DNA from: Rhodobacteraceae bacterium Water-Bin34
GTDB lineage: Bacteria; Pseudomonadota; Alphaproteobacteria; Rhodobacterales; Rhodobacteraceae
Direction of reading: 5' to 3'
DNA length: 64,000 nt
Assembly: GCA_900197625.1 (NCBI GenBank)
Contig: FZLS01000008.1
Coordinates: forward strand, 1-64,000
Shown here: positions 589-58,475 of the stretch, piece by piece
Numbering within the stretch: the stretch's first letter is position 1
How the letters are laid out: the number at the start of each line of letters is the position of its first letter
Translations under genes and position numbers: made by a program
Notes under the pieces: model-generated
Seen by the model: the letters and a program-made list of their open reading frames with translations, nothing else
Database searches by the model: none
What the model was told of the DNA's origin: nothing

Positions 589-897
589 ATGAAATACGAC
601 AATAACAAACCACCAATTCATCTTGTACCTACAGTAGCTATTGAAGCTGCAGCTAAGGTATTTGCTTTTGGTGCAGCTAAATATTCTGAAAACAATTGGC
701 GTGATGATATTAATACTACTGAGTGGGGTAGATCTTATTCTTCTCTTCAACGCCATCTCATGGCCTATTGGGATAAAGAAGATATTGATCCAGAGTCTGG
801 TCTTCTTCATTTAGATCATGCGTTAACTCAGCTAATGATCCTTCGTGTAGCTTATGATGAAGGCAAAGATATGGATGATAGATATGAAACAAAATAA
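589..897 (+). CDS. dATP/dGTP pyrophosphohydrolase-like protein (DUF5664, MazZ-like)
   Basis: The 102-residue protein matches the DUF5664 / dATP-dGTP diphosphohydrolase N-terminal family, all-alpha MazG-related enzymes that cleave purine dNTPs to dNMP and pyrophosphate. Visible family features are the N-terminal KPPIHLVPTVAIEAAAKVF, then FGAAKYSENNWR, and the C-terminal helix LLHLDHALTQLMILR with acidic and His residues for metal binding. The family includes MazZ of cyanophage S-2L, which supports 2-aminoadenine DNA, but no PurZ is present here. A role in biasing or sanitising the purine dNTP pool is therefore more cautious. The start follows CGGAGA at 574-579. The next gene begins inside its 3' end, so the two are coupled. 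Confidence 0.8.
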   Translation: MKYDNNKPPIHLVPTVAIEAAAKVFAFGAAKYSENNWRDDINTTEWGRSYSSLQRHLMAYWDKEDIDPESGLLHLDHALTQLMILRVAYDEGKDMDDRYETK

Positions 898-1579
898 TGT
901 AAGTAATATTCGTGAATACTTCTTTAACGAACTAAGCGATAAGAATTTTACCATCGACAAAACTGGTGCTAAAACAATTGAAATGTTAGGTGCAACATTT
1001 ATCGCTGATGAACCTGCAATCTTTGGTAATCCAGTGCAATCATACATTGATGCTGAATTAAAATGGTATGAAAGCGGTTCTACTAATATCAATGATATTC
1101 ATGGTGTAGATAAAGATCCACCAGCTGCTTGGCAATACGCTGCTAATGATAATGGTGAAATCAATTCTAATTATGGTCATCTCGTAAACTCAGCAAAATA
1201 CTTCAATCAATATAAAAATGCTTTTGGCGAGTTAATGAAAAACCCTGACAGTCGTCGTGCTCAAATGATTTACAATCGCCCATCTATTTGGGCTGAATAC
1301 AATGAAAACGGCAAATCTGATTTCATCTGTACAAATGCACAAACTTTCTATATTCGTGATTGTAAGTTGCACATGGTATCTCAAATGCGATCAAATGATG
1401 TAGTGTTTGGTTATAAAAACGATTATGCTTGGGCACAATCATTAATGGATAGATTTGTTAAAGATTGGAATGATTGTTCTGATGCGTACGGCAATCATGA
1501 TTATATTGAAAAGGGCATACTTACTTGGCAGGTAATGAACTTGCATGTGTATGAACGTCACTTTAATTTAGTGGAGTAA
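884..1579 (+). CDS. 42: dCMP hydroxymethylase (T4 gp42-like)
   Basis: The 231-residue protein belongs to the thymidylate-synthase family and closely follows T4 gp42: DKTGAKTIEMLGATFIADEP near the N-terminus, GEINSNYG at 91-98, the Arg pair SRR at 123-125, a catalytic Cys at about 149 (FICTNAQ), and MRSNDVVFG at 168-176. The NDYAW block keeps Asp 180, at the position where hydroxymethylases have Asp and thymidylate synthases have Asn; this favours dCMP over dUMP. It should convert dCMP to 5-hydroxymethyl-dCMP using methylene-tetrahydrofolate. The ATG at 884 is chosen over 854 because it aligns with the T4 start; it overlaps the preceding gene by 14 bases. The protein lacks roughly the last 15 residues of T4 gp42. 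Confidence 0.93.
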   Translation: MKQNNVSNIREYFFNELSDKNFTIDKTGAKTIEMLGATFIADEPAIFGNPVQSYIDAELKWYESGSTNINDIHGVDKDPPAAWQYAANDNGEINSNYGHLVNSAKYFNQYKNAFGELMKNPDSRRAQMIYNRPSIWAEYNENGKSDFICTNAQTFYIRDCKLHMVSQMRSNDVVFGYKNDYAWAQSLMDRFVKDWNDCSDAYGNHDYIEKGILTWQVMNLHVYERHFNLVE

Positions 1580-1581
1580 AC

Positions 1582-1800
1582 GTGAGCAAGCTAATAAAAA
1601 TTACAGACATACTAGAAACTAAACTTCGTAAAGAAAAAGAAATAGAATTTTACGAAGGTGAAATTAAAAAAATTCGACAAAAGATGATGTTCTTACAAAA
1701 GGACCTAGACTTAACAAAGCTCATAATATCTATTATTGAGAAAGAAAAAGTTTACGATATAAAAGAAGAAATGGAAACAAGGATGATATCCGATGATTGA
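1582..1800 (+). CDS. Small coiled-coil protein, unknown function
   Basis: This 72-residue protein starts at GTG 1582, two bases after the hydroxymethylase stop and behind GTGGAGTAA. Almost the whole length is charged heptad-like sequence (KEKEIEFYEGEIKKIRQKM), which predicts a parallel or antiparallel coiled coil. No catalytic motif is seen. Its end overlaps the dCMP deaminase start by 8 bases (ATGATTGA). The position between two deoxycytidylate enzymes could mean a structural role in a dNTP-synthesis complex, but that is only inference. Confidence 0.7.
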   Translation: MSKLIKITDILETKLRKEKEIEFYEGEIKKIRQKMMFLQKDLDLTKLIISIIEKEKVYDIKEEMETRMISDD

Positions 1801-2344
1801 TGATTATGAACCATACGATCAATATATGAAAAGAATGCACAGAGAAAATCCTGTAGATGTAGATAGTTTCTTAGATCCTCGTACAACTAAATGGCCAATT
1901 CGTTTCATGAATATGGCCAAAATGGTTTCTACGTGGAGTAAAGACCCTTCTAGTAAAATCGGTGCTGTAGCAGTAAATGACGAAAGAAACATTTTAGCAA
2001 CAGGATATAACGGTTTTCCAAAAGGTATCGCTGATACTGATGATAGATTAAATGATAGAGATGAGAAATATCCTCGTATTGTTCACGCAGAAATGAATGC
2101 TTTGATGAACGCTTTATATAATGGTGTATCATTAAAAGGTGCAACTCTTTATGTTTATGGATTACCGGTTTGTTCAGACTGCACTAAATGTGTTATTCAA
2201 GCAGGTGTAAAATCTCTTTGGATAATGTTACCTTCAGATTCTACTCCTGAAAAATGGACTGATATGTGGAATAGACAATCTATGCCGATGCTAATGGAAG
2301 CTGGTGTAGATATAAACGGCCTGAAAGAAGAAGAATTGGGTTAA
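1793..2344 (+). CDS. cd: Deoxycytidylate (dCMP) deaminase
   Basis: The 183-residue protein is a zinc-dependent dCMP deaminase producing dUMP. The zinc and catalytic signature is complete: HAE at 98-100 (catalytic Glu 100) and PVCSDC at 125-130 with Cys 127 and Cys 130. DPSSKIGAVAV at about 51-61 and ATGYNGFPKGI at about 69-79 are typical of phage and human dCMP deaminases. With the hydroxymethylase it competes for dCMP, feeding either dTMP or hydroxymethyl-dCMP. The TAA shares a base with the next ATG (TAATG). Confidence 0.93.
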   Translation: MIDDYEPYDQYMKRMHRENPVDVDSFLDPRTTKWPIRFMNMAKMVSTWSKDPSSKIGAVAVNDERNILATGYNGFPKGIADTDDRLNDRDEKYPRIVHAEMNALMNALYNGVSLKGATLYVYGLPVCSDCTKCVIQAGVKSLWIMLPSDSTPEKWTDMWNRQSMPMLMEAGVDINGLKEEELG

Positions 2345-11387: not shown

Positions 11388-11831
11388 ATGAATACTCGCA
11401 GATTAGATACGACTATGCTTAACGATCCATTCTTCATCGGCTTTGACCGCATGGTAGATAGAATGAGAACAGCAACGCCTAACCAGGCAAATTACCCACC
11501 TTATAATATTATCAAAACAGGCGAAGACCAATACGAATTACAATTGGCTATCGCAGGTTTTAATTACGATGATTTAGATATTACTTTGAAAGATGGAACT
11601 TTGACTATTGAGGGTAACCAAAATACAGATGACGAGAAGAACTACATTCATAAAGGTATTTCAGCTCGCTCTTTCAATCGTACGTTTACTTTAATGGACA
11701 CTATCGTAGTAAACGGTGCTGATCTTGATGCAGGAATTCTCAGCGTGCATCTCGAGAATGTAATCCCAGACGAAAAGAAACCTCGTACAATTGAAATTAA
11801 CCGAAGAGAACCAGAACTTCTAAAAGGTTAA
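11388..11831 (+). CDS. Hsp20 / alpha-crystallin small heat shock protein
   Basis: The 147-residue protein has the IbpA-type layout: DPFFIGFDRMVDRM at the N-terminus, YNIIKTGEDQYELQLAIAGF entering the alpha-crystallin domain, an ISARSFNRTFTL strand, the GILSVHLENVIPDEKKPRTI strand pair and a C-terminal RTIEIN (I-x-I type) motif. Hsp20 proteins are ATP-independent holdases and are a frequent gene in marine T4-like phages, where they may protect phage proteins during assembly. It follows AAGGAG and a promoter that looks both early and late, and ends at a strong terminator. Confidence 0.92.
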   Translation: MNTRRLDTTMLNDPFFIGFDRMVDRMRTATPNQANYPPYNIIKTGEDQYELQLAIAGFNYDDLDITLKDGTLTIEGNQNTDDEKNYIHKGISARSFNRTFTLMDTIVVNGADLDAGILSVHLENVIPDEKKPRTIEINRREPELLKG

Positions 11832-11847
11832 CTATTTTACAGCGATA

Positions 11848-11874
11848 GGGAGGCTTTCTTGGCCTCCCTTTTTT
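11848..11874 (+). terminator. Rho-independent terminator after hsp20
   Basis: A perfect 7-bp stem, GGGAGGC at 11848-11854 and GCCTCCC at 11862-11868, with a 7-base loop is followed by six T. Confidence 0.9.
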
Positions 11875-11888
11875 ATAATGGAGACAAA

Positions 11889-12227
11889 ATGAAATATATA
11901 ATTGATATTGATGGAACTATATGCCAGGAAGTCTATTTAATGGATGGAAGTGGCAAAAAAGATTATGCTAATCATATTCCGATGTATGATCGAATTGCTA
12001 AAGTAAATGCTCTGTACGAAGCAGGTCATACTATTAAATACATGACTGCACGCGGATGCGTAAGCGGCATAGATTATTGGAGACTAACTAATAATCAACT
12101 CGTTGAATGGGGTGCGAAATACCACGAACTCAGCGTAGGTAAAAAAGAAAACTACGATATTTGGATTGATGATAAAGCTTTTTGGTCAGAAAATTTCTTT
12201 CGTGAAACAGGCGAAAGCTATGAGTAA
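11889..12227 (+). CDS. HAD-superfamily phosphatase
   Basis: The 112-residue protein has HAD motif I DIDGTIC at about residues 5-11 with nucleophile Asp 5 and acid Asp 7, motif II with Thr in KYMTARG, and a motif IV acidic pair in DIWIDDKAFW. A cap domain is absent. Close relatives occur beside polysaccharide and nucleotide-sugar genes in bacteria and in marine phages, but the substrate cannot be read here. ATG 11889 is used because an upstream TTG at 11859 lies inside the terminator; it follows GGAGACA. The 3' end overlaps the next gene by 8 bases. Confidence 0.8.
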   Translation: MKYIIDIDGTICQEVYLMDGSGKKDYANHIPMYDRIAKVNALYEAGHTIKYMTARGCVSGIDYWRLTNNQLVEWGAKYHELSVGKKENYDIWIDDKAFWSENFFRETGESYE

Positions 12228-12414
12228 ATGGCATTACCAATTAATGAAACATAATGAATATTATGCAGTACATGAATTTTATCCATCAGACGATGGAGGC
12301 TCTTGGACTAAAAATCCTGTTGACATTTCCGGTGATTCGGTTCAAGATATAAAAGAATCTATACAAATGATTCTTAACGATATTGATAAACACGGAGTAA
12401 AAGACTATGAATAA
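12220..12414 (+). CDS. Small conserved-type phage protein, unknown
   Basis: The 64-residue protein starts MSKWHYQLMKHNEYYAVHEF and reads like a small mixed alpha/beta domain, with an acidic segment SDDGGSWTKNP and a helical C-terminus. ATG 12220 overlaps the HAD gene (ATGAGTAA), in keeping with the coupling used elsewhere; an in-frame ATG at 12166 would overlap the HAD gene by 62 bases and is less likely. Its end overlaps the next start by 8 bases. Function unknown. Confidence 0.65.
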   Translation: MSKWHYQLMKHNEYYAVHEFYPSDDGGSWTKNPVDISGDSVQDIKESIQMILNDIDKHGVKDYE

Positions 12415-12703
12415 ATGGATTGTAGACTGTTGGAATGTAGTAATGGATCACGAAAAAAATCCACTAAGTAGCATTCCCGATTTTAGTACACGTCATATGA
12501 TTATGCAAGTTCTTGCTTGGATGTGGTGTATTGTATTCGCAATTATTGTAGGAAGTATGTGGGCCGGTGTTATTAGTATGATGCTACATACACTATTGCT
12601 AGGCGCAGTTGCAGTAACAGTAGTAACATTTGAAACAGCGAAGCGTAAACCAAATGTATTTGGCACATACAGTGGTCGTGGGGATGGTGGCGAACATGAG
12701 TGA
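12407..12703 (+). CDS. Small inner-membrane protein with two TM segments
   Basis: The 98-residue protein has a hydrophilic N-terminus of about 30 residues, two hydrophobic helices (roughly 31-53, MIMQVLAWMWCIVFAIIVGS, and 55-76, ISMMLHTLLLGAVAVTVV) and a short polar C-terminus ending GGEHE. It has no signal peptide. It lies in a run of tiny overlapping genes and is coupled to both neighbours. Possible roles, such as superinfection exclusion or lysis control, are speculation. Confidence 0.7.
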   Translation: MNKWIVDCWNVVMDHEKNPLSSIPDFSTRHMIMQVLAWMWCIVFAIIVGSMWAGVISMMLHTLLLGAVAVTVVTFETAKRKPNVFGTYSGRGDGGEHE

Positions 12704-12869
12704 ACAAACACAATATTGCACAACTAAAGGATTAGGCTGGGCTTTCTTGGTCATATTCTTTATTATTGCTGTTTTACCAGTATTAATGTTAATGGCAATG
12801 GTTGGTCTAGAAGATTACGGCCGTTATTGTAATCTGAATATCTTACCATGCTTTGGATTAGGTAAATGA
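12696..12869 (+). CDS. 57-residue single-TM protein
   Basis: Start ATG 12696 overlaps the upstream stop (ATGAGTGA). The protein MSEQTQYCTTKGLGWAF continues into one strongly hydrophobic helix (about 12-36) and ends with a Cys-containing tail. An ATG upstream at 12630 would lie mostly within the preceding gene. The end overlaps the aldolase start (ATGA). Function unknown. Confidence 0.6.
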   Translation: MSEQTQYCTTKGLGWAFLVIFFIIAVLPVLMLMAMVGLEDYGRYCNLNILPCFGLGK

Positions 12870-13729
12870 GCGATTTAAAATTCACAACAGCAGGTGATTT
12901 TTTAGAAAGCCAAACCCGTTATGATGCAAGATTCATAGCGGCAATGGACCACAGTGGTGGTTCGACTGGCGGTGTATTAGAACGTTATGGTCGTGAATAC
13001 ACCGAAGAAAACAAGATGGATCGTGTACACGAAATGAGAATGAGAATGGTTAATTCTCCTGATTTCAACGATACAAATGTTTGGGCCGCAATTCTTTATA
13101 AAGATACAGTTACTCGAGGAATGGTTAATGAACTCGCAGATAAAGGTATCGACTCCTTTTTAAAGATAGATGATGGCTGTGAAGAAAACGGGATGCTTAA
13201 ACAGTTTCCCGTAAAACAAATATTAGAATTTGCTACTGACGGATTAGGTGAACCTATATACGGAACTAAGATGCGAAGCATTATTAAAAGTATAGACATG
13301 GTTGAGCCTATTTTAAAACAGCAATTTACTTTGGCACATACAATCCAAGAATACGGACTTATGCCAATAGTAGAACCCGAAGTTCCTATTGATCACGAAG
13401 ATAAAGAATTAATAGAACACGAGTTATACGATGCGCTAGAAAAACATTTATTTGGAAAAGATTACCAAGTTATTTTAAAGCTAACGCCTCCAGAAGTACC
13501 CAACCTATATCACAATCTTACATCAAAACATAGTGTAAACCGTATTGTGTTTCTTAGTGGAGGATACGCAACAGCTGAAGCGTGTCGTAGATTATCAATG
13601 AATCATGATGTTACTGCAAGTTTTAGTAGAGCTTTAAGCGAAGGTTTGAATCATAATCAAACTGATGCTGAGTTTAACGCTAAAATATCTCAGAACATTA
13701 GAATGATTGTTGACGCAACGTCAAGATAA
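12866..13729 (+). CDS. fba: Class I fructose-bisphosphate aldolase (bacterial type)
   Basis: The 287-residue protein aligns along its full length with the bacterial class I aldolase family typified by the Staphylococcus enzyme. It has AAMDHSGGSTGGVLERYG at 25-42, FLKID at 98-102, GTKMRS at 133-138, PIVEPEVPI at 167-175, the Schiff-base Lys 205 in VILKLTPPE, LSGGYA at 230-235 and ASFSRAL at 251-257. Active-site residues look intact, so it should split or form fructose-1,6-bisphosphate at glyceraldehyde-3-phosphate and DHAP. It is a host-type metabolic gene. It ends just before the promoter of the NCS1 transporter. Confidence 0.92.
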   Translation: MSDLKFTTAGDFLESQTRYDARFIAAMDHSGGSTGGVLERYGREYTEENKMDRVHEMRMRMVNSPDFNDTNVWAAILYKDTVTRGMVNELADKGIDSFLKIDDGCEENGMLKQFPVKQILEFATDGLGEPIYGTKMRSIIKSIDMVEPILKQQFTLAHTIQEYGLMPIVEPEVPIDHEDKELIEHELYDALEKHLFGKDYQVILKLTPPEVPNLYHNLTSKHSVNRIVFLSGGYATAEACRRLSMNHDVTASFSRALSEGLNHNQTDAEFNAKISQNIRMIVDATSR

Positions 13730-13737
13730 TCAAAAGG

Positions 13738-13765
13738 TTGACATTTTGCCCAATTATGATAAGAT
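13738..13765 (+). promoter_or_regulatory. Sigma70-like promoter of the NCS1 transporter gene
   Basis: TTGACA at 13738-13743 and TAAGAT at 13760-13765, 16 bases apart. A 36-base leader ends in AGGAGTATATAATG at the start codon. Confidence 0.8.
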
Positions 13766-13801
13766 AGTAATTGGGTATTAACATATTAAAAGGAGTATAT
13801 A

Positions 13802-15211
13802 ATGTTAAAAAACAAAGACCCAAGTTTATATAATGAAGACTTGGCTCCCATTCCAGAAAAGAAACGTACTTGGGGTGCGTTTGAGATTTTTAACGTATGG
13901 TCTAACGACATTCAAAGTTTGTTTGGTTATACGCTAGCAGCATCTCTATTCATCTCATTTGGTTTAAACGGTTGGACAGTATTTGCTGCCATCATGTTGG
14001 CCGGTCTTTTTGTAATGTGGTTAGTCAATTTGATGGGTGAGCCAAGTGTTAAGTATGGTATCCCATTCCCTGTTATGGCTCGTTCGAGTATGGGGGTAAG
14101 AGGTGCTAACTTCCCGGCTGTGGCCCGCGGAATCGTGGCAATCTTTTGGTATGGTGCGCAAACTTATTTCGCATCAACCGCAGTATCACTATTAATTTCG
14201 GCATTAGCCGGAGGAAATGGTGAAGCAGTAATGCTAGGCATGAGTACAATCGATTGGGTATCGTTCCTATTCGTTTGGGCATTCCAAGTATATCTGTTCT
14301 GGAAAGGTATCCCTTGGATTACTAAATTCCTAAATTTCGCAGGTCCTTTTGTTTACGCAGTAATGATTGCTTTGGCTCTCACTATTTGGGTAAAAGCAGG
14401 TTCAGGACTTACTACAGAAATGGGTACAATCTTTGAAGGTACAGGCGAATACGCAGGTACATCTTTCTCAGCATTCGTAGCTATTGTAGGAACAATGATC
14501 GCTTATTTCGCAGCAGTTGTAATTAACTATGGTGATTTCTCACGTAACGTTAAATCACAGGCTGCAATGAAAAAAGGTAACTTGATTGGTTTGCCATTGA
14601 ATATCGCATTCTTTTCATTAATTACACTTATCGTTACTTCAGGTACTATTGCAATCTGGGGTGAAGCGGTCACAAGTCCAACTGATATTATTGCGATGGT
14701 AGATTCTTTACCATTGACTGTTGTTGCAGCGATTATGTTTTTCGTAGCAACTATCGGTATTAATATCGTTGCAAACTTTATCCCGCCAGCGTATGATATC
14801 GCTAATCTAATGCCTTCAAAAATCGATTTTAAACTCGGTGGTTTGATTACATCAGGTTTTGCTCTTATTATCGGTGGATTATGGGTATCAACTATTTCAC
14901 AGCTCGGTATCTTTGGGTTTGTTAATACTTTAGGAGCTGTACTTGCACCTATTTACGGTATTATGATGGTTGATTACTACATGCTTAAGAAAGGCAAATT
15001 AAACGTAGAACAACTATTCTCAGCTTCTGAAGATGGAGAATATTACTACGATAACGGTTGGAATAAAAAAGCTATGATCGCTTTTGTTGTACCAGCTATT
15101 TTCTCAGTAGCGACTGTCTGGGTAGGTTCATTGGCATTCTTGTCAGGTTTCTCTTGGGTAATCGGCGCTGCACTTGGTGGTTTAGTTTATTACGCAATTA
15201 CTAAAAAATAA
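13802..15211 (+). CDS. NCS1 family nucleobase:cation symporter
   Basis: The 469-residue protein has about 12 hydrophobic segments and is full length for the NCS1 (purine/pyrimidine permease, LeuT-fold) family. Family marks are LAPIPEKKRTWGAFEIFNVW at 14-33, FWYGAQTYF at 115-123 (Trp 116 and Gln 120 match the substrate-stacking Trp and the Gln of Mhp1-type transporters), NYGDFSR at 242-248 and NIVANFIPPAYDIANLMP at 321-338. It probably imports a nucleobase or related compound (uracil, cytosine, allantoin, hydantoin) with Na+ or H+; the substrate cannot be fixed. It is a single-gene unit with its own promoter, a strong AGGAG site and a terminator. A complete secondary transporter of this size is rare in a phage. 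Confidence 0.92.
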   Translation: MLKNKDPSLYNEDLAPIPEKKRTWGAFEIFNVWSNDIQSLFGYTLAASLFISFGLNGWTVFAAIMLAGLFVMWLVNLMGEPSVKYGIPFPVMARSSMGVRGANFPAVARGIVAIFWYGAQTYFASTAVSLLISALAGGNGEAVMLGMSTIDWVSFLFVWAFQVYLFWKGIPWITKFLNFAGPFVYAVMIALALTIWVKAGSGLTTEMGTIFEGTGEYAGTSFSAFVAIVGTMIAYFAAVVINYGDFSRNVKSQAAMKKGNLIGLPLNIAFFSLITLIVTSGTIAIWGEAVTSPTDIIAMVDSLPLTVVAAIMFFVATIGINIVANFIPPAYDIANLMPSKIDFKLGGLITSGFALIIGGLWVSTISQLGIFGFVNTLGAVLAPIYGIMMVDYYMLKKGKLNVEQLFSASEDGEYYYDNGWNKKAMIAFVVPAIFSVATVWVGSLAFLSGFSWVIGAALGGLVYYAITKK

Positions 15212-15219
15212 AAAAATAT

Positions 15220-15252
15220 GCGATAGCGAGTTAATTCTTGCTATCGCTTTTT
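15220..15252 (+). terminator. Rho-independent terminator after the transporter
   Basis: An 8-bp perfect stem (GCGATAGC at 15220-15227, GCTATCGC at 15240-15247) with a 12-base loop is followed by TTTTT. Confidence 0.9.
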
Positions 15253-15265
15253 AAGGATTTATGAC

Positions 15266-15484
15266 ATGATAAAACCAAATACAAAGTTTAATCTCGATAT
15301 AAGAGATATTGAAATCATTGAAGAAGCATTGAGAGCGAAAGCAGGTCGTAGAGGCATGTCTATTGCAAACGGTGAAACTTCAGCAAAATTAAAAGATGAA
15401 ATGCACGAGATACAAGAACTTCTTGGCAGAATACATCATCAAAAGAATTTTTATAAGCCAAAGGGATTTGTACCAGGCGGATAA
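15266..15484 (+). CDS. Small phage protein, unknown
   Basis: The 72-residue protein begins after AAGGATTTATGAC. It has an N-terminal motif FNLDIRDIEIIEEALRAKA that predicts a helix-turn arrangement, a central helix with KLKDEMHEIQELLGRIHHQ, and a basic Gly/Pro tail. The DIxIIEEALR pattern recurs in small proteins of marine T4-like phages, but no function is known. Its stop codon lies inside GATAAATA at 15480-15487, one base away from a T4 late box. Confidence 0.65.
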   Translation: MIKPNTKFNLDIRDIEIIEEALRAKAGRRGMSIANGETSAKLKDEMHEIQELLGRIHHQKNFYKPKGFVPGG

Positions 15485-15506
15485 ATATAACGTTACATTA
15501 AGTAAC
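15480..15506 (+). promoter_or_regulatory. Possible late-promoter variant and small hairpin
   Basis: GATAAATATAACG at 15480-15492 resembles TATAAATATAACG before hsp20. It is followed by a 5-bp inverted repeat GTTAC-ATTAA-GTAAC at 15492-15506. It could drive the gene at 15533. It differs from the T4 late box at the first base. Confidence 0.35.
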
Positions 15507-15532
15507 AACACACACAAACACAGGAGAATAAA

Positions 15533-15751
15533 ATGAGTAAAAACCCATTCGAAATTAGAGCTGAAATGCTACAGCTTGCTAAAGAATACATGGATCAACA
15601 ATACCATATGAATGTTCAATTTGCTGAAAGCATGATGGAACAGGGTAAGAAAACTATTGAAGATGTTAAGTCTTCTTACGAAATGTATTCAATGGATGAT
15701 CTAATGGAAAAAGCTAAAGAAATGTATAGCTTCGTTTCCAACAAAGATTAA
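15533..15751 (+). CDS. Small helical phage protein, unknown
   Basis: The 72-residue protein starts after CAGGAGAATAAA. The opening NPFEIRAEMLQLAKEYMDQQ is typical of a small protein conserved in marine T4-like phages, and the rest is predicted helical and Met-rich. It has no TM segment. It forms a short unit between a possible late promoter and a terminator, so it may be strongly and separately expressed. Its function is unknown; a virion-associated or scaffold-type role is only a guess. Confidence 0.7.
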   Translation: MSKNPFEIRAEMLQLAKEYMDQQYHMNVQFAESMMEQGKKTIEDVKSSYEMYSMDDLMEKAKEMYSFVSNKD

Positions 15752-15775
15752 TTCTAAATTAAATCAAACTAATTT

Positions 15776-15804
15776 AAAAGGGGGGTTTACAGCCCTCTTT
15801 TTTT
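15776..15804 (+). terminator. Rho-independent terminator overlapping a promoter
   Basis: AAAAGGGGG at 15776-15784 pairs with CCCTCTTTT at 15793-15801 (one G-U pair) around a short loop, followed by T residues. The loop carries TTTACA, which can act as a -35 for the promoter below. Confidence 0.75.
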
Positions 15805-15814
15805 ATGCTATAGT
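15786..15814 (+). promoter_or_regulatory. Sigma70-like promoter inside the terminator
   Basis: TTTACA at 15786-15791 and TATAGT at 15809-15814 are 17 bases apart. The gene at 15844 begins 30 bases downstream behind AAAGGAACGCGAA. Confidence 0.55.
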
Positions 15815-15843
15815 GATTCTAGTTAAAAACAAAGGAACGCGAA

Positions 15844-16059
15844 ATGTACAACGTTTTAAAAATCGAAAAGTTCTCAAGAGCAGCGATAGCAGAAGGTCGC
15901 ATCAACGGTGTTGATATTACAGTACCTAAAATTATTGCTACTTACGACGGTTATTTTTCGGCTAAAAAATTAGCTATGAAATTCAATAACATTCATAAAA
16001 CAGTTTGTGACGAGTACGGTTCAGATTATACTATTAGATATGAGGTAGAAGAATTTTAA
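15844..16059 (+). CDS. Small unknown protein
   Basis: The 71-residue protein follows AAAGGAA. It reads as a small alpha/beta domain (MYNVLKIEKFSRAAIAEGR, then VPKIIATYDGYFSAKKLAMKFN and a final YTIRYEVEEF strand), basic in the middle. It has no signal, membrane segment or metal motif. It is a single-gene unit between two promoters. No family was recognised. Confidence 0.6.
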   Translation: MYNVLKIEKFSRAAIAEGRINGVDITVPKIIATYDGYFSAKKLAMKFNNIHKTVCDEYGSDYTIRYEVEEF

Positions 16060-16068
16060 AAATAACGG

Positions 16069-16096
16069 TTGACATTTAGAATCAATACGGTATAAT
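16069..16096 (+). promoter_or_regulatory. Strong sigma70-like promoter
   Basis: TTGACA at 16069-16074 and a perfect TATAAT at 16091-16096, 16 bases apart: the only perfect -35/-10 pair seen in the window. The leader ends AAAGGACTATATTATG. Confidence 0.85.
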
Positions 16097-16127
16097 AGCT
16101 TTATAGTTAATTAGAAAGGACTATATT

Positions 16128-16466
16128 ATGAGTAATCAAATCCCATTCGGCATCAGCCTATCAGGCAAAGCAGAGTATACTTATTCTGAGTTGTGTAACT
16201 TCGTTGAATGTGCAGAGGGTATTGAGCCAAAATCTCTTGAAAAAGATTATGTTTCTTTTTTAGAGAACGTGCTAGCAGGTAAAGTTAAGCGCTCTACATT
16301 AGTAGATGTTGAAGTGCTAGAAACCTTTAGAGCTGATCTAGATAATCGAGCCGATATCGATTATAGAGAAGGACATTGGGACGACGAACCCGATATCGTA
16401 GCTGGTGGCAAATACTTTGCTAAAGTCGCAGAAAGACTTAAAGCTCATATAAAAAAATCAACATAA
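16128..16466 (+). CDS. Unknown soluble protein behind a consensus promoter
   Basis: The 112-residue protein is acidic and mostly helical. Segments include YTYSELCNFVECAEG, DYVSFLENVLAGKVKRSTL and an acidic stretch YREGHWDDEPDI before a basic C-terminal helix. It has the best sigma70-type promoter in the window and a UUCG-loop terminator, suggesting strong early expression as a single gene. Such isolated, strongly expressed small phage genes are often host-takeover factors, but nothing in the sequence shows this. Confidence 0.65.
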   Translation: MSNQIPFGISLSGKAEYTYSELCNFVECAEGIEPKSLEKDYVSFLENVLAGKVKRSTLVDVEVLETFRADLDNRADIDYREGHWDDEPDIVAGGKYFAKVAERLKAHIKKST

Positions 16467-16471
16467 AATTA

Positions 16472-16493
16472 GGGAGCTTCGGCTCCCTTTTTT
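16472..16493. terminator. Terminator between convergent units (UUCG loop)
   Basis: GGGAGC at 16472-16477, loop TTCG, GCTCCC at 16482-16487, then six T. It ends the rightward unit and lies against the 3' end of the leftward tape-measure gene, which could use it on the other strand with a weaker T tract (TAATTTT). Confidence 0.9.
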
Positions 16494-18495
16494 AGCTTAA
16501 CATGTGTGGCATACCAGTTATCGCAGGATCACCGCTAAAACCGCCACCTATATTTACAACATTAAGATCTGTCTTTGTTTTAGCACCTTGAACTGTTGTC
16601 ATTGTTGGCGACACGTTTGTTGGAGCATTAATACTTAAATGTAAAGGATGTGTACTACCAGCATCTTGTATAATTTTAAATGTATTCGGATCAATAGAAC
16701 CTGGACCGCCTGGTTTAAACGGTACTACGCCAAAGTTTTTCATAGCTCGTTTAGCGTTATAGTCATAACTACCCAAATCTCCTCCGCTAAACAGATGTCT
16801 TGTATCAGATATTGCATCTAACGCATTCATTTCGTGTCCAGTAGGAACATTACCTATCATGCCACGCAATCTACCAGAGCCATACGCTACAGGGTTAACA
16901 CTTCCTGTTAAAATTGTATCTACTGCAGCTTGACCACGTTGTTTATCTGCTGGACTTATTTCTTCTTGTAGTAACCATTTAACTACAATATAACCTAAAT
17001 AGTCTCCGCCGAAACCACCTAAAACAGAACCTACTAAACCACCTGCTGGAACAGTCAACCAAGCAAATGGTCCACCTAATAAACCAGCTGCGGCACCAGC
17101 TATCGCTCCACCACCTGCACCAATAATTCCACCAACATGACCGCCTATTAATGCTAATCTTTCATCTTCACTAACATCAGCCTCCATCATTGTCATTAAA
17201 ATAATTAGATCTGCGACTTTAAAAGCTACATTTAATTTAGCTAAGAAATCAAAAAGTCTAGTTAATAACTTTCTCATCCTTGGACTATTGAGTTTTTTAA
17301 GAGCTTCTTGAATATCAGAAGCTTTGACTTTTGCGTTAGGATCAGGAGCTTTGTTAGAGTTAGCAGCCATATAAGCTCCTCTATTTAATTCTCCAAATTT
17401 ACGTGGATCTCCTCTACCAATTACAGATGGAGTTCTATTAAAAGAATTTCCCATTCCGCCTTGCACTTTTTGATTTGCGTTAGGCCTATACGGTGATTCT
17501 GGTGATGTTGTATTAAAGTTAAATCTGTTAGGCCCCTGTGGTTGATTTAATTTAGGAGGTAATGACGTATCGACAGGCTTAGGAGTAACCGACCTAACAT
17601 CAAATCCAGAGTCCATATTGAATTTAGCGCCTGGGCCTAAATCATCGATGCTTGTAACAACCTTTGGTTTATTTAAATTGTCGAGTAACTTTTGGTTTGC
17701 TTTTACAATATCGGCTTGTTGTTTTAATATTTTCTTTTGATTATCAGACATCTTACTAGAGTCAATCTCATTCGCTTCAAGAAGAGTATTATTTCTTTTC
17801 ATAATTGCATTAGCAATTCTAATACTAGCCGCTGTAATAGCTAAACTAAAGGGAATTGATGCTACAGCAAGAAGTATTTTAGTAACAACACTATTACGAA
17901 CTTTATCAACGTCTTCTTTTAACGTTTTAAAAGTTGCATTCATATCTGCGATGTTTTCGTTCATTTTATCAAGGCTTGTCTTGAGTGATTTAGGATCAAA
18001 ACCTTTTAGAGATGTACCTATTTCACCGATCTTTGACTCTAGTGCAGAGAATGATCCGTTATGTCTTTCATCAATAAAACCTTTAAGAATGTTATAACCA
18101 GCTCCAGCAGCAAGCAAACCGCCACCCAATTTTGCAGCTCCGCCTAATATTCCTCGCATTGAAATCTTTTCAAGTCTATCACCCATCTTTTCGATGGCTT
18201 TATCTGTTCTATCACTAGTTTCTTTTACTACTGCAACTTTTTCTGATCTCTCTAAATCTGCGAAATCTGCTTCTTGCTTCATTCTCTCAGCATTTTGTTC
18301 TAACATATTAGTTTGTATTGCTAACATTTCTCTCTGTGCTGTAGAGTTTCTAGATATAGTATCAAATACTTTATCAAACTTTCTTAATTCTACCTTTACA
18401 GAACGAAGCGAATTCGTACCTGAGTTACGAATTAATTGACCTTCGGCTTTTAACCTGTCAATAATTGCTAATGTTTCTTCTGACATTTGAGCCAT
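16492..18495 (-). CDS. Tape-measure protein (tail length; gp29 role)
   Basis: The 667-residue protein has the build of a tape measure. It has a long charged helical N-terminal half (coiled coil about 1-100 and 160-280), a hydrophobic segment near 110-140, and a Pro/Asn-rich linker at about 290-390. A strongly hydrophobic glycine-rich stretch at roughly 460-530 (GGIIGAGGGAIAGAAAGLL) could insert into the host membrane for DNA entry. It lies directly downstream of a tail-chaperone pair with a frameshift site, the usual place of tape measures. It is shorter than many myovirus tape measures, which would predict a modest tail length. Direct homology to T4 gp29 is not obvious by eye. Confidence 0.7.
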   Translation of the reverse strand: MAQMSEETLAIIDRLKAEGQLIRNSGTNSLRSVKVELRKFDKVFDTISRNSTAQREMLAIQTNMLEQNAERMKQEADFADLERSEKVAVVKETSDRTDKAIEKMGDRLEKISMRGILGGAAKLGGGLLAAGAGYNILKGFIDERHNGSFSALESKIGEIGTSLKGFDPKSLKTSLDKMNENIADMNATFKTLKEDVDKVRNSVVTKILLAVASIPFSLAITAASIRIANAIMKRNNTLLEANEIDSSKMSDNQKKILKQQADIVKANQKLLDNLNKPKVVTSIDDLGPGAKFNMDSGFDVRSVTPKPVDTSLPPKLNQPQGPNRFNFNTTSPESPYRPNANQKVQGGMGNSFNRTPSVIGRGDPRKFGELNRGAYMAANSNKAPDPNAKVKASDIQEALKKLNSPRMRKLLTRLFDFLAKLNVAFKVADLIILMTMMEADVSEDERLALIGGHVGGIIGAGGGAIAGAAAGLLGGPFAWLTVPAGGLVGSVLGGFGGDYLGYIVVKWLLQEEISPADKQRGQAAVDTILTGSVNPVAYGSGRLRGMIGNVPTGHEMNALDAISDTRHLFSGGDLGSYDYNAKRAMKNFGVVPFKPGGPGSIDPNTFKIIQDAGSTHPLHLSINAPTNVSPTMTTVQGAKTKTDLNVVNIGGGFSGDPAITGMPHMLS

Positions 18496-33402: not shown

Positions 33403-35994
33403 ATGCAAAAGTTCGAATGGATTGTTACTCTACATAATAAAGAAGATCTAGATGATTTTTACGATGATATGGAAACACCTGGTGGTTCTATAACTATACC
33501 CGATCGTAAAGTAGAATTAGTAAACCGAAGAACGATTAGTCGCAATACTCATTATATGTTAACTTGGGAAGAAGCTGAAGAAGTAAGAGCAGACAAAAGA
33601 GTTGCTGGTCTTGATCTTGCTGCAGAATTAGAAGAAACAACAAAGCCAAATGGTTGGTCTATGACTGGAACTTTTTCAAAAGATTGGTTTACAGACGAAT
33701 CAGATAAAAACTGGGGATTATTAAGACATAACGAAGTAACAAATAGAAGTAATTGGGGTGCAAACGGTACTTCAAACGTAACAGATACAGTTACAGTGAC
33801 TGCCTCTGGGAAGAATGTTGATGTTGTACTTATTGATGGACACTTCGATCCAGGACATCCTGAATTCGCAGTAATTGGAACTGAGACAGATTATTCAGAT
33901 GGTGCACTTGTAAGTGACTCATCTAATGGAGCAGTATTTGATAGATCAATTACAGTTCGTGGAGTTAAATGTGTTATTGCAGGTGCAGTAGGTGGACAAA
34001 CCGCAGTACCAGATGCCTGGGCATATAAAACTGCAAAATTTATTACATTACTTATTAATCCGCAAGATCCTTTGATTAGTTTAGAACACCAAACCAATTT
34101 AATTAAAACATTAAAGGGCGATTCAGGAACTACCCATGCAGGCATACCTACGGCACAAAGAGTTGCTTATGGTGGCGGTAGTTCATATACACCAAACTTT
34201 TTAACAGACGCAGGTGCGGCACAATACGCAGGATATCAAACTTTTTTAGATAATAACGCTATGGATGATATGGTATGGTATAGAAATACATCAGGGCCAA
34301 ATCCTCCGACAAGTAATAGAGATATCGAAGAGTTGGCAGAACACTTGTTTCATACAATTCATAACTTTGGTATTCCAGGTGCAGTTCCTGGAAGTGCTAC
34401 AGAAGTTCCTATGCAATCTTTAGGACCGATACTCGAAGGCAATCCTAGTTTTGATTGGCAAAATACAGAATTACATCTTGCAATGAAAGAAGCAATTGAC
34501 GCCAGCCTATACGATCCCTCTGGTTATTCTACAGATTGGGCGACAGATTCTGATGCAGCTATGGTTGCATATAAAGAATATACTTATTTAGTTAATTGGT
34601 CAATGTGGGATATGAGTCAATTCTGGGATGGAGGAAGTCTTTCTCCAGAATGGTCTGATACACTAAAAACACCGGCAGGTATGTTAGCAAATAACCCGTT
34701 GGGTCATGCTATGTTTAAAAAATACTTTGAACCAGTATTAAGTAAACCTAATTTTGCTCAAATACAAAATATGCTTCAGGATAACGATGTAGGTGAACAT
34801 TACTACGAAGAGTCTGCAAACGGAGCTTCAAGAGTTGTTCAATATAATTGGTTTCAAAATAATATAGGACTCGGAACTGGAACTTACGTTTATACACCTT
34901 ATGTAGATGCAAATGATCCTGATTATACATTAGATCAAAACCACGGCTGTCATTGTGCCGGAACAGTAGCAGGTAATACTCAAGGTTGGGCGCGTCAAGC
35001 AAATATCTATAACATTAGTCCTTACAGTTCTAATCCAAATTGGGGTGATTTCGGTCTAAGTTCTACTACATTTTGGGATTATATTAGAGCATGGCATAAC
35101 TCAAAGCCAATCAATCCCGCAACAGGTAGGCGAAATCCTACTATAACTAATAATAGTTACGGAAGTTCTAGAAGAGTAAACTACGGAAATTACGGACCGG
35201 TGACAGAAGTATTTTATAGAGGTGTTACATTCGCACCTGGTAGAGACTTAACTTCAGCAGAGTTAAATGCACGAGGTTTTTGGGCTGGTGATTCAATTGC
35301 TGATTTATCAATCCCAGCTTATTTTAACTCAAGAGAAGCAGATATGCAAGATGCTATCGATGATGGTATTATTATTGTTGCTTCTGCTGGAAACGATTCT
35401 TGGAAAACTGTAAATTCTTCTGATCAAGATTTTAATAACACATTTAAATGCACATATTATGGTTTTACACAAACTAATTGGTTACATAAAGGTACAGGTG
35501 CAGCTGCAGGATATGCACCAGTCATCAACGTAGGTGCACAATCAAACGATGTCAACGAAGATAAAGCTAACTTTAGTAATTGCGGTAATCAAGTAGATAT
35601 ATTTGCTGCTGGCGAAGGTATTCAAAGTAGTTTGCACACAGGTGGTATTACCGACACAAGAAATAGTTCATATGATCTGGGTAAGTATCAAGGAACAAGT
35701 ATGTCAGGTCCACAAGTGACAGGAGTTGTCGCATTGCTTGCAGAGTCTTGGCCAAGCATAACTCAAGCTCAAGCTCAACAATGGTTAATTGATAACGCTA
35801 ATTCAGATTTAATGGCTGACACTGGAACAGACGATGCAACAGATAGAAATAGTTTGCAAGGTGCTCCAAACAAAATGTTAAGATGGATAAATCAGAGACC
35901 ATTAACGGGATCAGCGTTTCCTAAGAAAAATTTCGCAAATAGACCTACATCAGGTAAAACTTATCCTAGAACTCGTGTAAGAGCAAGAGGATAA
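33403..35994 (+). CDS. Virion-associated subtilisin-like serine protease with large insertion
   Basis: The 863-residue protein carries an S8 (subtilase) catalytic set: Asp 145 in VVLIDGHFDPGHPEF, His 514 in NHGCHCAGTVAG, the oxyanion Asn 664 in ASAGNDSW and Ser 766 in GTSMSGPQVTG. The Asp and His are 369 residues apart; in subtilisin BPN' the gap is 32. The insert (about 160-500) has no subtilase motif, is rich in Trp/Asp/Asn, and contains EELAEHLFHTIHNFG. The first 110 residues could be a pro-domain or attachment part. It lies inside the baseplate operon between an appendage gene and gp8, so it probably rides on the virion and cuts a surface protein or takes part in maturation. Confidence 0.85.
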   Translation: MQKFEWIVTLHNKEDLDDFYDDMETPGGSITIPDRKVELVNRRTISRNTHYMLTWEEAEEVRADKRVAGLDLAAELEETTKPNGWSMTGTFSKDWFTDESDKNWGLLRHNEVTNRSNWGANGTSNVTDTVTVTASGKNVDVVLIDGHFDPGHPEFAVIGTETDYSDGALVSDSSNGAVFDRSITVRGVKCVIAGAVGGQTAVPDAWAYKTAKFITLLINPQDPLISLEHQTNLIKTLKGDSGTTHAGIPTAQRVAYGGGSSYTPNFLTDAGAAQYAGYQTFLDNNAMDDMVWYRNTSGPNPPTSNRDIEELAEHLFHTIHNFGIPGAVPGSATEVPMQSLGPILEGNPSFDWQNTELHLAMKEAIDASLYDPSGYSTDWATDSDAAMVAYKEYTYLVNWSMWDMSQFWDGGSLSPEWSDTLKTPAGMLANNPLGHAMFKKYFEPVLSKPNFAQIQNMLQDNDVGEHYYEESANGASRVVQYNWFQNNIGLGTGTYVYTPYVDANDPDYTLDQNHGCHCAGTVAGNTQGWARQANIYNISPYSSNPNWGDFGLSSTTFWDYIRAWHNSKPINPATGRRNPTITNNSYGSSRRVNYGNYGPVTEVFYRGVTFAPGRDLTSAELNARGFWAGDSIADLSIPAYFNSREADMQDAIDDGIIIVASAGNDSWKTVNSSDQDFNNTFKCTYYGFTQTNWLHKGTGAAAGYAPVINVGAQSNDVNEDKANFSNCGNQVDIFAAGEGIQSSLHTGGITDTRNSSYDLGKYQGTSMSGPQVTGVVALLAESWPSITQAQAQQWLIDNANSDLMADTGTDDATDRNSLQGAPNKMLRWINQRPLTGSAFPKKNFANRPTSGKTYPRTRVRARG

Positions 35995-46017: not shown

Positions 46018-49000
46018 ATGTCGTTGATTTCAGAACTAGGTCCGATAAAAGGCGCTAATACAAGATCCGAGGACTTGTTTGTCATTGTTAACTTGATCCA
46101 AGGTGATGACGGAACGAAAAACATCACACGAAAAGAGATGGTCCAAGCTCTTCAGTATGAAATATTCAATAGAATAACTATTACTGGTGGGACTATATCA
46201 AATGTTACGATGTCTTCTTCGACTCTTAACACAGTTATTATCAATGACTCAGCATATAATAACGGAACGATTTTAGGTTCAGCGTTAAGCTCTGTATCTA
46301 TTATTAATTCTACTGCAAATAACCTTACTATTACGAGCTCAGATTTCTCTGATGGAACTGGTAATAATAATATCTTTACCAATACTACTTTAATTGACTC
46401 AGACATCAATGATTCTGACGCCAACAATATGTTAATTGATAACTCTGATTTCTCTAATGGAACAGGCAATAACAACGTATTTACAAATTCACGTATCGAT
46501 AATTCTGATTTTGCGAATGTTGCAATTGAAGGTGGTACTGCCAATAACCTAACTCTTACAAATGTTATTATTGACGAAATCGTTCTTGAAGACGCATTAA
46601 TGTCAAACTCAGTAATCATTACTACTGACTTTAGTAATGGTACAATCAGAGATACAGCAATCTCAGGTAATACAACTATCGTTGATACAGATATTTCTAA
46701 CTCTGATATACGAGATACAGATCTAGATAATGTTGATATAACAAATTCTCGTTTTTCAAATGGACAAATTTGGGATACGACAGTAAGTAACTCAACTATT
46801 ATCGACACGACTGCAAACAACATTGTAATGACATCTTCAGTTATTTCAAGTTCTGCACTTAACGATAGTACTGCTAACAATGTTAACATTACAAACTCAG
46901 ACTTCTCTGATGGAACTGGTAACAATAATATCTTTACCAATACTACTATTCAAGATGGTACACTTGCTAATAACGTTATTACCAACTCATCATTCCAAGG
47001 TACACTTGATAATGTAACTGCTCAGAATATGACTATCACAAGTTCATCTACTGAAGGCCTTGGTCAACAAAAATCTATAATTGAAAATTCTGAATTTAAA
47101 GATGGTGTCGTATCTAATTCATCAATCGAGGAAAGCACTCTTGTTGATTTTGATATGGATATTACTAGAACATTCGAGCCGATGCTCGATGAAGACAGTT
47201 ACTTTGCTCTGAAAAACGTTAAAACTGGCGATACAGAGAAAATGACTTATCGTCAACTTTACAACGAATTCTCTAAGAAAACAGAAAAATCTCTTAAAGT
47301 ACACGTTGCTTCAGACGGTAATGATGATTATCCAGGAACTATTCTACAACCAGTTCGTACGCTAAAACGCGCTGAGAAAATTGCTTTAGAAAAAGCTGGC
47401 GGATCATATGATCGTAACGCAATTAATGATGCTGTTCACATTTCAGTAGGTCCAGGTACTTATTATGTAGATGAGCCTGTTATGTTGCCAGATGATTGTT
47501 CTATGACATCAACTGCCGGTCAGTATGCAACTGTTATTCAAAAGAAAAAAGGTTGGGAAAGAACAAACGGTATCTTAGTTGGATCTGGTTGTTATGTTCA
47601 AGGCTTCTCTTATATGAACTTTGAAGTTGATAACTTTGACCAACCTGAAGGTGGTTTTGCTATCGCTTATAGACCAGGTGCTCTACTAAGACGTTCACCA
47701 TATCTTCGTGACTCTACTCAGCTTTCAAACTTTAATAGACTTGATGTTGAACCTCCGTTAAATCCATTTAACTCAAAAGGTACCATCCTTGATTTAGGTC
47801 AAGAATTCTATTTAGTTGCAGGTCACTCTGCTCAAGCACAATTTGAAGTTGACGATGAAGTAACATTCTCATCTGGTGCAACAGGTTATGTATCATATAT
47901 CGATGATATTGACGCAAACAGACAAATTTATGTTCGTAACCTAAAAGGTAACGTTGAAGTTGGAGATATTCTATATGCTCAACGCGGTGGTACTGGTACT
48001 ATCGAGTCAATTGGTATTGATGATTTCCCTAACAGATTAGTTGGTCGAGGCGGCGGTTGTCTATTAGCAGACAGAGCACAACTTGATACCGACTCGTTAT
48101 ATACATACGTACTTTGTTTTGGTTTCACACCTCGTACTCAAAACGGTACAGGTTATGTTGCTAAAAACGGTGCTGGTGTTAACGGTATTGGTTCATTATC
48201 AATCTTTACACGTCAAGCATTCTTCGCATTAGACGGTGGTCAAATGACTTTGAACAACTCAGGTTCTCAGTTCGGTGACATCTCAATGAGAGCAAGAGGC
48301 AGCACGGTTATTATTAGACCTGCAGAAGCTACTGTATCCAACTTAACAGCAAACTCTGCATTTGCTGACGTAATCGAAGAAAATAAACAAGAAATAGTAG
48401 ATGATATGGTTTATCATCTCACAACTCCTGTTGCAAGTGGTGGTTTAGGTTATCAAGGTTACAACGCTGATAAATGCTTTAGAGATACTGGTATTATTGT
48501 TGATAATACAGGTTATGACATTGCAACAAACGGAAACTATTGGGGAAGATTAAATGGTATATCTTACCGTTCTCCAATTTCATATCTTGTTGTTGATGAA
48601 CAATTAACAGAAACTACAGGTTCTATAGAACATCTTAAAGACTCAATGACTAGCTCAGATGGCGGTATCTTCGGGTATGCAAGTTCTACAGTTAAAACAA
48701 GAATTGATACTTCTTTAAATGAAACTCTTAATATTTTACAAAATGGAGAAGAAGCTGCTAATCCTATTATCTTCGCTGATACAGGAAAATCGGATCAAAC
48801 TGCGGCTCGTGAAGTAGTACAAGTAAACAGAGATTTAATCATTAACGAATTCGTAGATTGGATCGATAACAACGATGAGTTTTATGCTTACGACAGTGTA
48901 AAATGCGAACGCGATGTTCAAGAGTATATCTTACCAGCAGTAAAATATGATATGATGCTTGATACTAACTATAACGCTGTAACATCTGGTTTAGCTTATT

Positions 49001-58053: not shown

Positions 58054-58475
58054 TGGCAATTTACACAATAGCAACATCACAGGCGCCTGATGCAAAACCG
58101 GTCGCCAAATCTTTCACATTGACTACCAACTGGTTGCCAATGATAGAAGTACCAAACTATGAAGTACCGGAACTTGTTTTCGGTGGTTCAACAACAACAG
58201 AACCTGGAGTTGGTGAAGTTATTTCACCTCTTATTTTATGTAATATTACAGCAAATACAGTAGCGGTTGATGTAGAAGTACATAGAGAAGACATTAATGC
58301 AGAATTTTATCTAGTCAGGAATTTACAAATTCCAGCTTATGAAACTATTCCATTACCTCTTAACGGGCAATTTTTTAAATCTGGTGATTTATTAAATCTG
58401 AAGGCTGATACAAATTTAGCAATTCATGCTACCTTATCGTATACACTGGGCCAAGCCGAAGAGGATGACGTCTAA
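58053..58475 (+). CDS. Small beta-rich virion protein, unknown
   Basis: The 140-residue protein is coupled to both giant neighbours (TAATG overlaps at 58053 and 58475). It appears all-beta: [20 protein letters not shown] at the start, [20 protein letters not shown] and [20 protein letters not shown] in the middle, a Greek-key-like small virion domain, with an acidic tail. Similar small proteins accompany fibre genes in marine T4-like phages. Its role could be a connector or tip protein. Confidence 0.65.

Follow-up and report, generated by a model that had tools for sequence, protein, structure and literature searches.

Phages are known to carry uptake genes as auxiliary metabolic genes, for example genes for phosphate or ammonium uptake. 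The transporter considered here resembles them in being a host-derived uptake gene in a phage genome, and differs from them in substrate class. It belongs to the NCS1 superfamily, whose members of solved structure include the hydantoin transporter Mhp1 and the cytosine transporter CodB, and for which allantoin permeases of the PucI and AllW types are described. In the part of PMC11698098 drawn on here, a SAR11 gene set comprising an annotated allantoin NCS1 permease, allantoicase, ureidoglycolate lyase and PuuE is presented and allantoin cross-feeding is proposed; the allantoin role of the permease itself is based on this gene context. Excerpts from PMC11633122 describe PA0476 as the apparent sole allantoin transporter of P. 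aeruginosa and as not close to PucI or AllW.

The locus lies in a stretch of 64,000 nucleotides (the window) at the beginning of a 69.5-kb contig, itself part of a 3.6-Mb genome bin. The relevant features are the following.

854-1579, forward strand: thymidylate-synthase-like gene (phrog_160, PF00303), of the kind that precedes the transporter in a second group of phage copies (clade C, below)
1793-2344, forward strand: dCMP deaminase gene (phrog_174), of the kind found directly after the transporter in clade C
12866-13729, forward strand: class-I fructose-bisphosphate aldolase-like gene (PF00274 and PRK05377 matches)
13738-13765, forward strand: sigma70-like promoter, TTGACA-16-TAAGAT (TAGAAT in the related phage loci L003 and L006)
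13790-13795, forward strand: ribosome binding site AAGGAG, seen directly in the letters
13802-15211, forward strand: NCS1-type (PF02133) transporter coding sequence, 469 aa, ATG to TAA, 12 transmembrane (TM) helices
15220-15247, tail to 15252, forward strand: intrinsic terminator, a hairpin of 11 pairs followed by a T run

The transporter gene and its expression signals

The first-pass annotation had described a full-length NCS1-family transporter of about 12 TM helices, over an interval (13738-15252) that runs from the start of the promoter-like site to the end of the terminator tail. This description holds. Translation of the 469-codon frame gave zero internal stops, so that the disrupted frame named there as grounds for doubt is not present and 13802-15211 is open throughout. 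Residues 16-455 match Pfam PF02133 (E = 1.9e-83, 281 bits against a gathering cut-off of 23.5), which places the protein in the broad NCS1 superfamily defined by that model. An AlphaFold2 model built from 40 aligned sequences had a mean pLDDT of 87.2, and 12 TM helices were counted in it by eye. Mhp1 and CodB entries were its top four structural matches (Z 39.7, 39.4, 39.0 and 30.6); the best alignments extended over 422 residues for Mhp1 (Z 39.7) and 396 for CodB (Z 39.4), and other LeuT-fold proteins reached 25.4 or less. As modelled, the protein would therefore share the LeuT-type 12-TM fold with these two transporters, to which it is 23% (Mhp1) and 15% (CodB) identical over the structural alignment.

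With the NCS1 subfamily model TIGR00800 the protein scored 255.4 bits, below the 353.1-bit cut-off, and six scanned relatives also fell under it (245-266 bits). Three NCBIfam models match the transporter, all below their cut-offs, and two of the three describe allantoin permeases: the PucI/AllW equivalogs PRK11375 and NF047713 gave 265.9 and 241.8 bits, well short of the 620 and 800 required for assignment. Since PA0476 is also remote from both, according to the excerpts from PMC11633122, these missed cut-offs are no strong argument against allantoin. Searches of PHROGs at E 0.001 returned no family for either the transporter or the aldolase.

The promoter-like site, originally called consensus-like, is conserved upstream of the transporter in L003 and L006, where it reads TTGACA-16-TAGAAT and is nearer consensus; it is absent upstream of the phage copy L007 and of the clade-C copies. 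As a class, looser promoter matches were not above chance (75 found, 82.5 expected), and exact TTGACA with TANNNT was found seven times against 5.7 expected. Three copies of the extended word TTGACATTTT are present in the window (5830, 7380 and 13738), every one at a gene boundary, and a count of at least three was seen in one of 100 shuffles; perhaps it represents a phage early/middle promoter class. Downstream, the 11-pair hairpin with its T run ranks first among the terminator-like sites of the first 20 kb (19 found, 9.3 expected), in keeping with the strong terminator proposed. A hairpin lies 3' of the transporter in all seven phage copies folded, with a T run after it in the window, L003 and L007 and none in L006 and three clade-C copies. 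The stem is held with different paired letters in L006 and L007, and the clade-C copies have an unlike hairpin. The list of terminator-like sites has no entry from the aldolase stop (13729) to the promoter. Transcription of the aldolase is therefore likely to run on into the transporter, which is probably transcribed in this way as well. The unit earlier termed ‘self-contained’ thus has its own promoter-like site and hairpin but is uninsulated on its upstream side.

Phage contexts and at least two captures

The window is T4-like phage DNA. Matches to its baseplate-wedge-like protein were obtained in 2,359 phage records, Sinorhizobium phages phiN3 and phiM12 (39%) being among the top ones, and PHROGs identified phage genes as neighbours of the transporter in the window, L007 and the clade-C locus L012. 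The sole INPHARED DNA match of 11388-17000 was a 288-base piece present in four records of Methylophilales phage Melnitz. The named relatives suggest that the phage is marine.

Carriage of the transporter is as rare in phages as had been supposed. Among the 2.9 million contigs of IMG/VR, 14 loci encode it, and these fall into three phage gene contexts; an alignment-based second scan recovered 13 of the same 14, and viral scans with SAR11 and Rhodospirillaceae relatives as queries gave no contig beyond the first scan. In INPHARED, matches (30-39% identical) were confined to 5 of 50,697 records. The first context is that of the window: L003, L004, L005 (99.6%), the partial L015 and L006 (95%) have the aldolase upstream in all cases. 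L007 (91%), which belongs with these in clade A, comes from a different phage, in which the transporter is flanked by an exonuclease-family gene and a protease-family gene (phrog_1827) and has genes for ribonucleotide reductase and PhoH in its vicinity. The third context is clade C (L008-L014 and L016), whose proteins are 71-74% identical to the window protein. Here a dCMP deaminase homologue directly follows the transporter in 8/8 loci, and a thymidylate-synthase-like gene directly precedes it in the 7/7 that have upstream sequence. The window contains the dUTPase and dCMP deaminase reported previously (the latter recognized by phrog_174); the dCMP hydroxymethylase named with them may be the gene at 854-1579, which is thymidylate-synthase-like. 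Its thymidylate-synthase-like and dCMP deaminase genes lie about 11 kb from the transporter; the gap between these two genes (1580-1792) holds no transporter. The 69-kb record of L012 shares the nucleotide cassette with the window lineage (two proteins at 82-87%, two transporter-flanking proteins at 53-61%), while the rest of it is distant from the window, with the family-B DNA polymerase at 48%, four structural-region proteins at 24-47% and most others matchless.

The window contig is part of a metagenome-assembled bacterial genome bin, as might be expected if a bacterial gene had been joined to a phage contig during assembly. Against such a chimera, the same aldolase–transporter junction recurs in L003, L004, L005, L015 and the diverged L006, which carry other metagenome ids (these ids differ, although some may come from one site). 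In addition, the copies differ at silent sites (dS 0.11 to 0.67) and the transporter is flanked by phage genes. We therefore rejected this explanation, to which we attach almost no credence, and the arrangement is not peculiar to a single assembly.

Phage copies of the transporter are under strong purifying selection. The NG86 estimates of dN/dS were 0.017-0.063 in 9/9 phage pairs computed, and 0.017-0.050 for the window transporter against L003, L006 and L007, the values for L007 pairs being rough since dS there exceeds 1. A maximum-likelihood tree was built from 80 of 100 collected sequences, 20 having been removed as near-copies (14 Pseudomonas/Stutzerimonas, 6 phage); rows below 40% identity or with fewer than 300 aligned residues had been excluded beforehand (the partial L015 and L016, and distant NCS1-like paralogues). 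The phage copies fell into two clades. Clade C and the bacterial L033 are sisters (100/100), whereas clade A is placed among copies from Rhodospirillaceae, Paracoccaceae, Veronia, Hoeflea, Roseibium and the Roseobacter group, its exact sister being weakly supported. Forcing all seven phage rows together cost 65.8 log-likelihood units, and a single viral origin of the transporter was rejected by the AU test (p-AU 0.00065). From the tree and this test against a single phage clade, there have been at least two separate phage captures; that is, phages have gained the transporter at least twice. The GC content of the phage copies (0.38-0.41) is near that of their phages (0.36-0.38). Among bacterial copies L033 and L021 have 0.52-0.53, but because the SAR11 copy L049 is also low, at 0.36, GC is no guide to the date of capture. 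As a host-derived, intact and selected gene in a bona fide phage, the transporter has the genomic hallmarks of an auxiliary metabolic gene.

Relatives of the aldolase were found in 112 viral stretches. Only 5 of the best 80 of these 112 loci carry the transporter, all of the window lineage, and coupling of the two genes was therefore rejected. At 68 of the same best 80 of 112 loci, upstream of the aldolase there is a homologue of the 11859-12227 gene, so that the aldolase resembles an accessory module widespread among phages. The gene directly after the aldolase is a homologue of the downstream gene w15533 in L210 and of w15266 in L203; the transporter thus has the appearance of an insertion into a plastic region. 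Elsewhere in the window, an 863-aa ORF of the tail region (33403-35994) has a subtilase domain (PF00082, residues 495-806, E = 3.1e-24). A 4011-aa ORF with recurring blocks (46018-58053) and a nearby 1563-aa ORF rich in GxQG collagen-like repeats (58475-63166) are, as judged by eye, perhaps tail fibres.

Bacterial relatives, substrate and coupling ion

To place the protein among bacterial homologues, we used the best 80 of 572 confirmed loci from a genome-contig search, which are 61-81% identical to the window protein and to which all neighbour counts refer. Flanks of up to 8 kb were fetched, some shortened by contig ends. Five ureide markers (AllA, PuuE, Alc, UraD and PuuD) were counted by tblastn on DNA, since in some GC-rich loci the true ORFs were masked by longer overlapping frames; the query proteins were named by Pfam, except that PuuE was recognized from its polysaccharide-deacetylase domain and context. 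At least one marker was nearby at 27 of these best 80 of 572 loci, and none of the five was found in the remaining 53, some of which have short flanks. PuuE, UraD and AllA lie near the transporter at L033, which is sister to clade C, and L029, from the same larger clade as the window protein, also has a ureide-linked neighbourhood.

Seven SAR11-type copies are 63-65% identical to the window protein, and AllA, Alc and PuuE are neighbours in 5/7 of their loci (L049, L050, L052, L057 and L067; 63-64%), which match the gene set containing the ‘allantoin NCS1 permease’ (gene l) in the part of PMC11698098 considered. The window protein and the SAR11-type copies lie in one 75-row group (100/100), separate from the L017/L018 group; although this clade is wide, sequence would thus assign the window protein to the same clade as the SAR11-type permease. 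In the two SAR11 proteins aligned, L049 and L057, the pocket and Na2-position residues are identical to those of the window protein. The two systems differ in setting: the SAR11 permease gene is chromosomal and stands beside those for allantoicase, ureidoglycolate lyase and PuuE (PMC11698098, same part), whereas tblastn found no ureide genes in seven phage sequences (the window, L003, L006, L007, L009, L011 and L012). A viral scan with SAR11 PuuE, which reaches close relatives only, likewise found none.

These neighbourhoods bear on the earlier proposal that the phage imports nucleobases for DNA synthesis. Uptake of pyrimidine or purine nucleobases such as uracil or cytosine would suit the position of the clade-C gene between the thymidylate-synthase-like gene (7/7) and dCMP deaminase (8/8). 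The family name itself spans cytosine, uracil and purine permeases, and sequence is a poor guide to NCS1 specificity, as stated in the excerpts from PMC11633122. However, the relatives with telling neighbours, among them the sister of clade C and the five SAR11-type loci, sit in ureide/urate clusters (in a search for the five ureide markers), and the window phage has the clade-C nucleotide cassette without the transporter in it. As stated, the nucleobase proposal is not supported and is probably wrong; we consider it unlikely, though still to be reckoned with. Allantoin, by comparison, yields urea, ammonia and glyoxylate and is no substrate for nucleotide salvage.

Excerpts from PMC4195764 list W117, Q121, N318 and W220 in the binding site of Mhp1, and in a profile alignment these correspond to W116, Q120, N325 and F236 of the window protein, all invariant in 40 aligned sequences; the TM6 aromatic residue of CodB is also Phe (PMC9379551, in the part cited). 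The putative pocket would thus retain the NCS1 aromatic sandwich (TM3 Trp, TM6 Trp/Phe) together with the TM8 Asn, sharing the stacking Trp and this Asn with Mhp1. Where Mhp1 has G219, its glycine at the TM6 break, the window protein has Tyr235, so that its pocket is unlike that of Mhp1. Phage membrane proteins can cause superinfection exclusion or a proton leak, and the transporter might alter the membrane in such a way rather than serve nutrition. Yet W116, Q120, N321, N325 and F236 are kept in the phage copies at a dN/dS of about 0.05, and we regard a role of this kind as very improbable.

With regard to coupling, the positions of S312/T313 in Mhp1, which we take to be its Na2 ligands, are occupied in the profile alignment by G319/I320, again invariant in 40 sequences. 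The corresponding sodium-site residues of CodB are given as T278/T279 in the part of PMC9379551 used. The TM8 hydroxyls of sodium-coupled NCS1 proteins therefore appear to be missing from the window protein. Since these positions read Gly-Ile, and since PucI and AAN are proton-driven according to the sections of PMC13390362 consulted, H+ symport is favoured, protons being the more probable driving ion for the transporter than sodium. An N35-D36 pair in TM1 near the break is invariant in the 40 aligned sequences, and D36 is a candidate coupling residue.

The bacterial genes nearest to clade A raise a different alternative. They come from Rhodospirillaceae BH24, Veronia, Hoeflea, Roseibium and the Roseobacter group (69-81% identical), and the flanks of the 12 closest loci (L021-L028, L030-L032 and L047, within the best 80 of 572) contain none of the five ureide genes, so that the substrate of clade A has to be read from the wider family. 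What they have instead is a small resolvase-like gene, of the serine-recombinase type, divergent from the NCS1 gene and just upstream of it. It was found on the opposite strand at about 7.1-7.9 kb in 13/13 loci (the 12 and L037, from the same best 80); the phage loci checked showed no such gene. One example scanned has resolvase and HTH domains. By eye, the L023 protein has Ala where the catalytic serine would be expected; the gene may therefore encode not a recombinase but a dedicated regulator that reuses the recombinase fold. In the Roseobacter-group loci L030, L031 and L032 the first NCS1 gene is directly followed, at about 9.5-11 kb, by a second paralogue in tandem, whose product has 54-56% identity with the window protein.

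It is conceivable, then, that the window clade shifted its substrate to a different nitrogen compound, either ring-opened or resembling hydantoin (hydantoin, dihydrouracil or a guanidine-type compound). Besides the ureide-free, resolvase-linked loci, this would accord with the more distant homologue L018, which adjoins an Asp/Glu/hydantoin racemase gene, with racemase homologues near 23 of the best 80 of 572 loci, and with Tyr235, which alters the pocket. NCS1 proteins can also change to unrelated substrates, MetT for metformin being an example in the sections of PMC13390362 consulted. The clade A proteins are nevertheless 69-81% identical to bacterial copies in the clade of the ureide-linked L029 and L033, and the pocket positions checked are invariant in 40 sequences; we judge such a shift rather unlikely.

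A possible role in infection

We favour, at roughly even odds, a reading that sequence comparison suggests: a phage-borne and probably H+-coupled importer of allantoin or a closely related ureide, which would supply the ureide catabolism of the host during infection. The gene for this host-derived secondary importer of the NCS1 superfamily, carried by a T4-like marine phage, would have a host-type promoter of its own, would probably receive aldolase read-through as well, and would have its transcript ended by the hairpin. The infected cell would then take up more ureide through the phage importer, and the host's own ureide enzymes would release urea or ammonia, together with glyoxylate, from the imported allantoin to support phage production.

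By co-binning, the genome bin may be that of the phage host. A 4.7-kb contig of the bin (L102, C241) encodes a PuuD-type urate oxidase, HIUase, a polysaccharide-deacetylase/OHCU-decarboxylase (PuuE-UraD) fusion and ureidoglycolate lyase; its GC content of 0.37 is like that of other sampled bin contigs (0.34-0.43). By eye, this compact purine-to-ureide cluster also contains a LysR-type regulator. A second NCS1 copy in the bin, on a 5.6-kb contig, is 61% identical and groups with the SAR11 copies in the tree. An allantoicase search of the bin gave no match, but control genomes were equally silent, so that this result carries no weight.

In the open-access literature we found no report of an allantoin or NCS1 gene in a phage, which is weak evidence of novelty; the gene would be a phage uptake gene with a new substrate class, probably ureides. 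At least two captures, at different sites and in different phage lineages, indicate that it pays for phages to carry it. A wider claim, that marine T4-like phages acquired a ureide (allantoin) permease on repeated, independent occasions and that infected bacteria thereby tap the purine-waste pool of others, falls somewhat short of an even chance in our estimation. Allantoin contains one nitrogen per carbon, and if phages do carry an allantoin importer, infection would redirect the flow of this compound. Among SAR11 and other marine bacteria it may serve as an overlooked currency of cross-feeding, as suggested in the part of PMC11698098 used here. The family label ‘nucleobase symporter’ can mislead, in that the neighbourhoods of relatives indicate scavenging of nitrogen and carbon over base salvage. 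The transporter is well suited to direct tests of the factors that limit the growth of phages in the sea and, if the wider claim is true, viral infection would be a player in the proposed purine/allantoin/urea cross-feeding cycle of the ocean.
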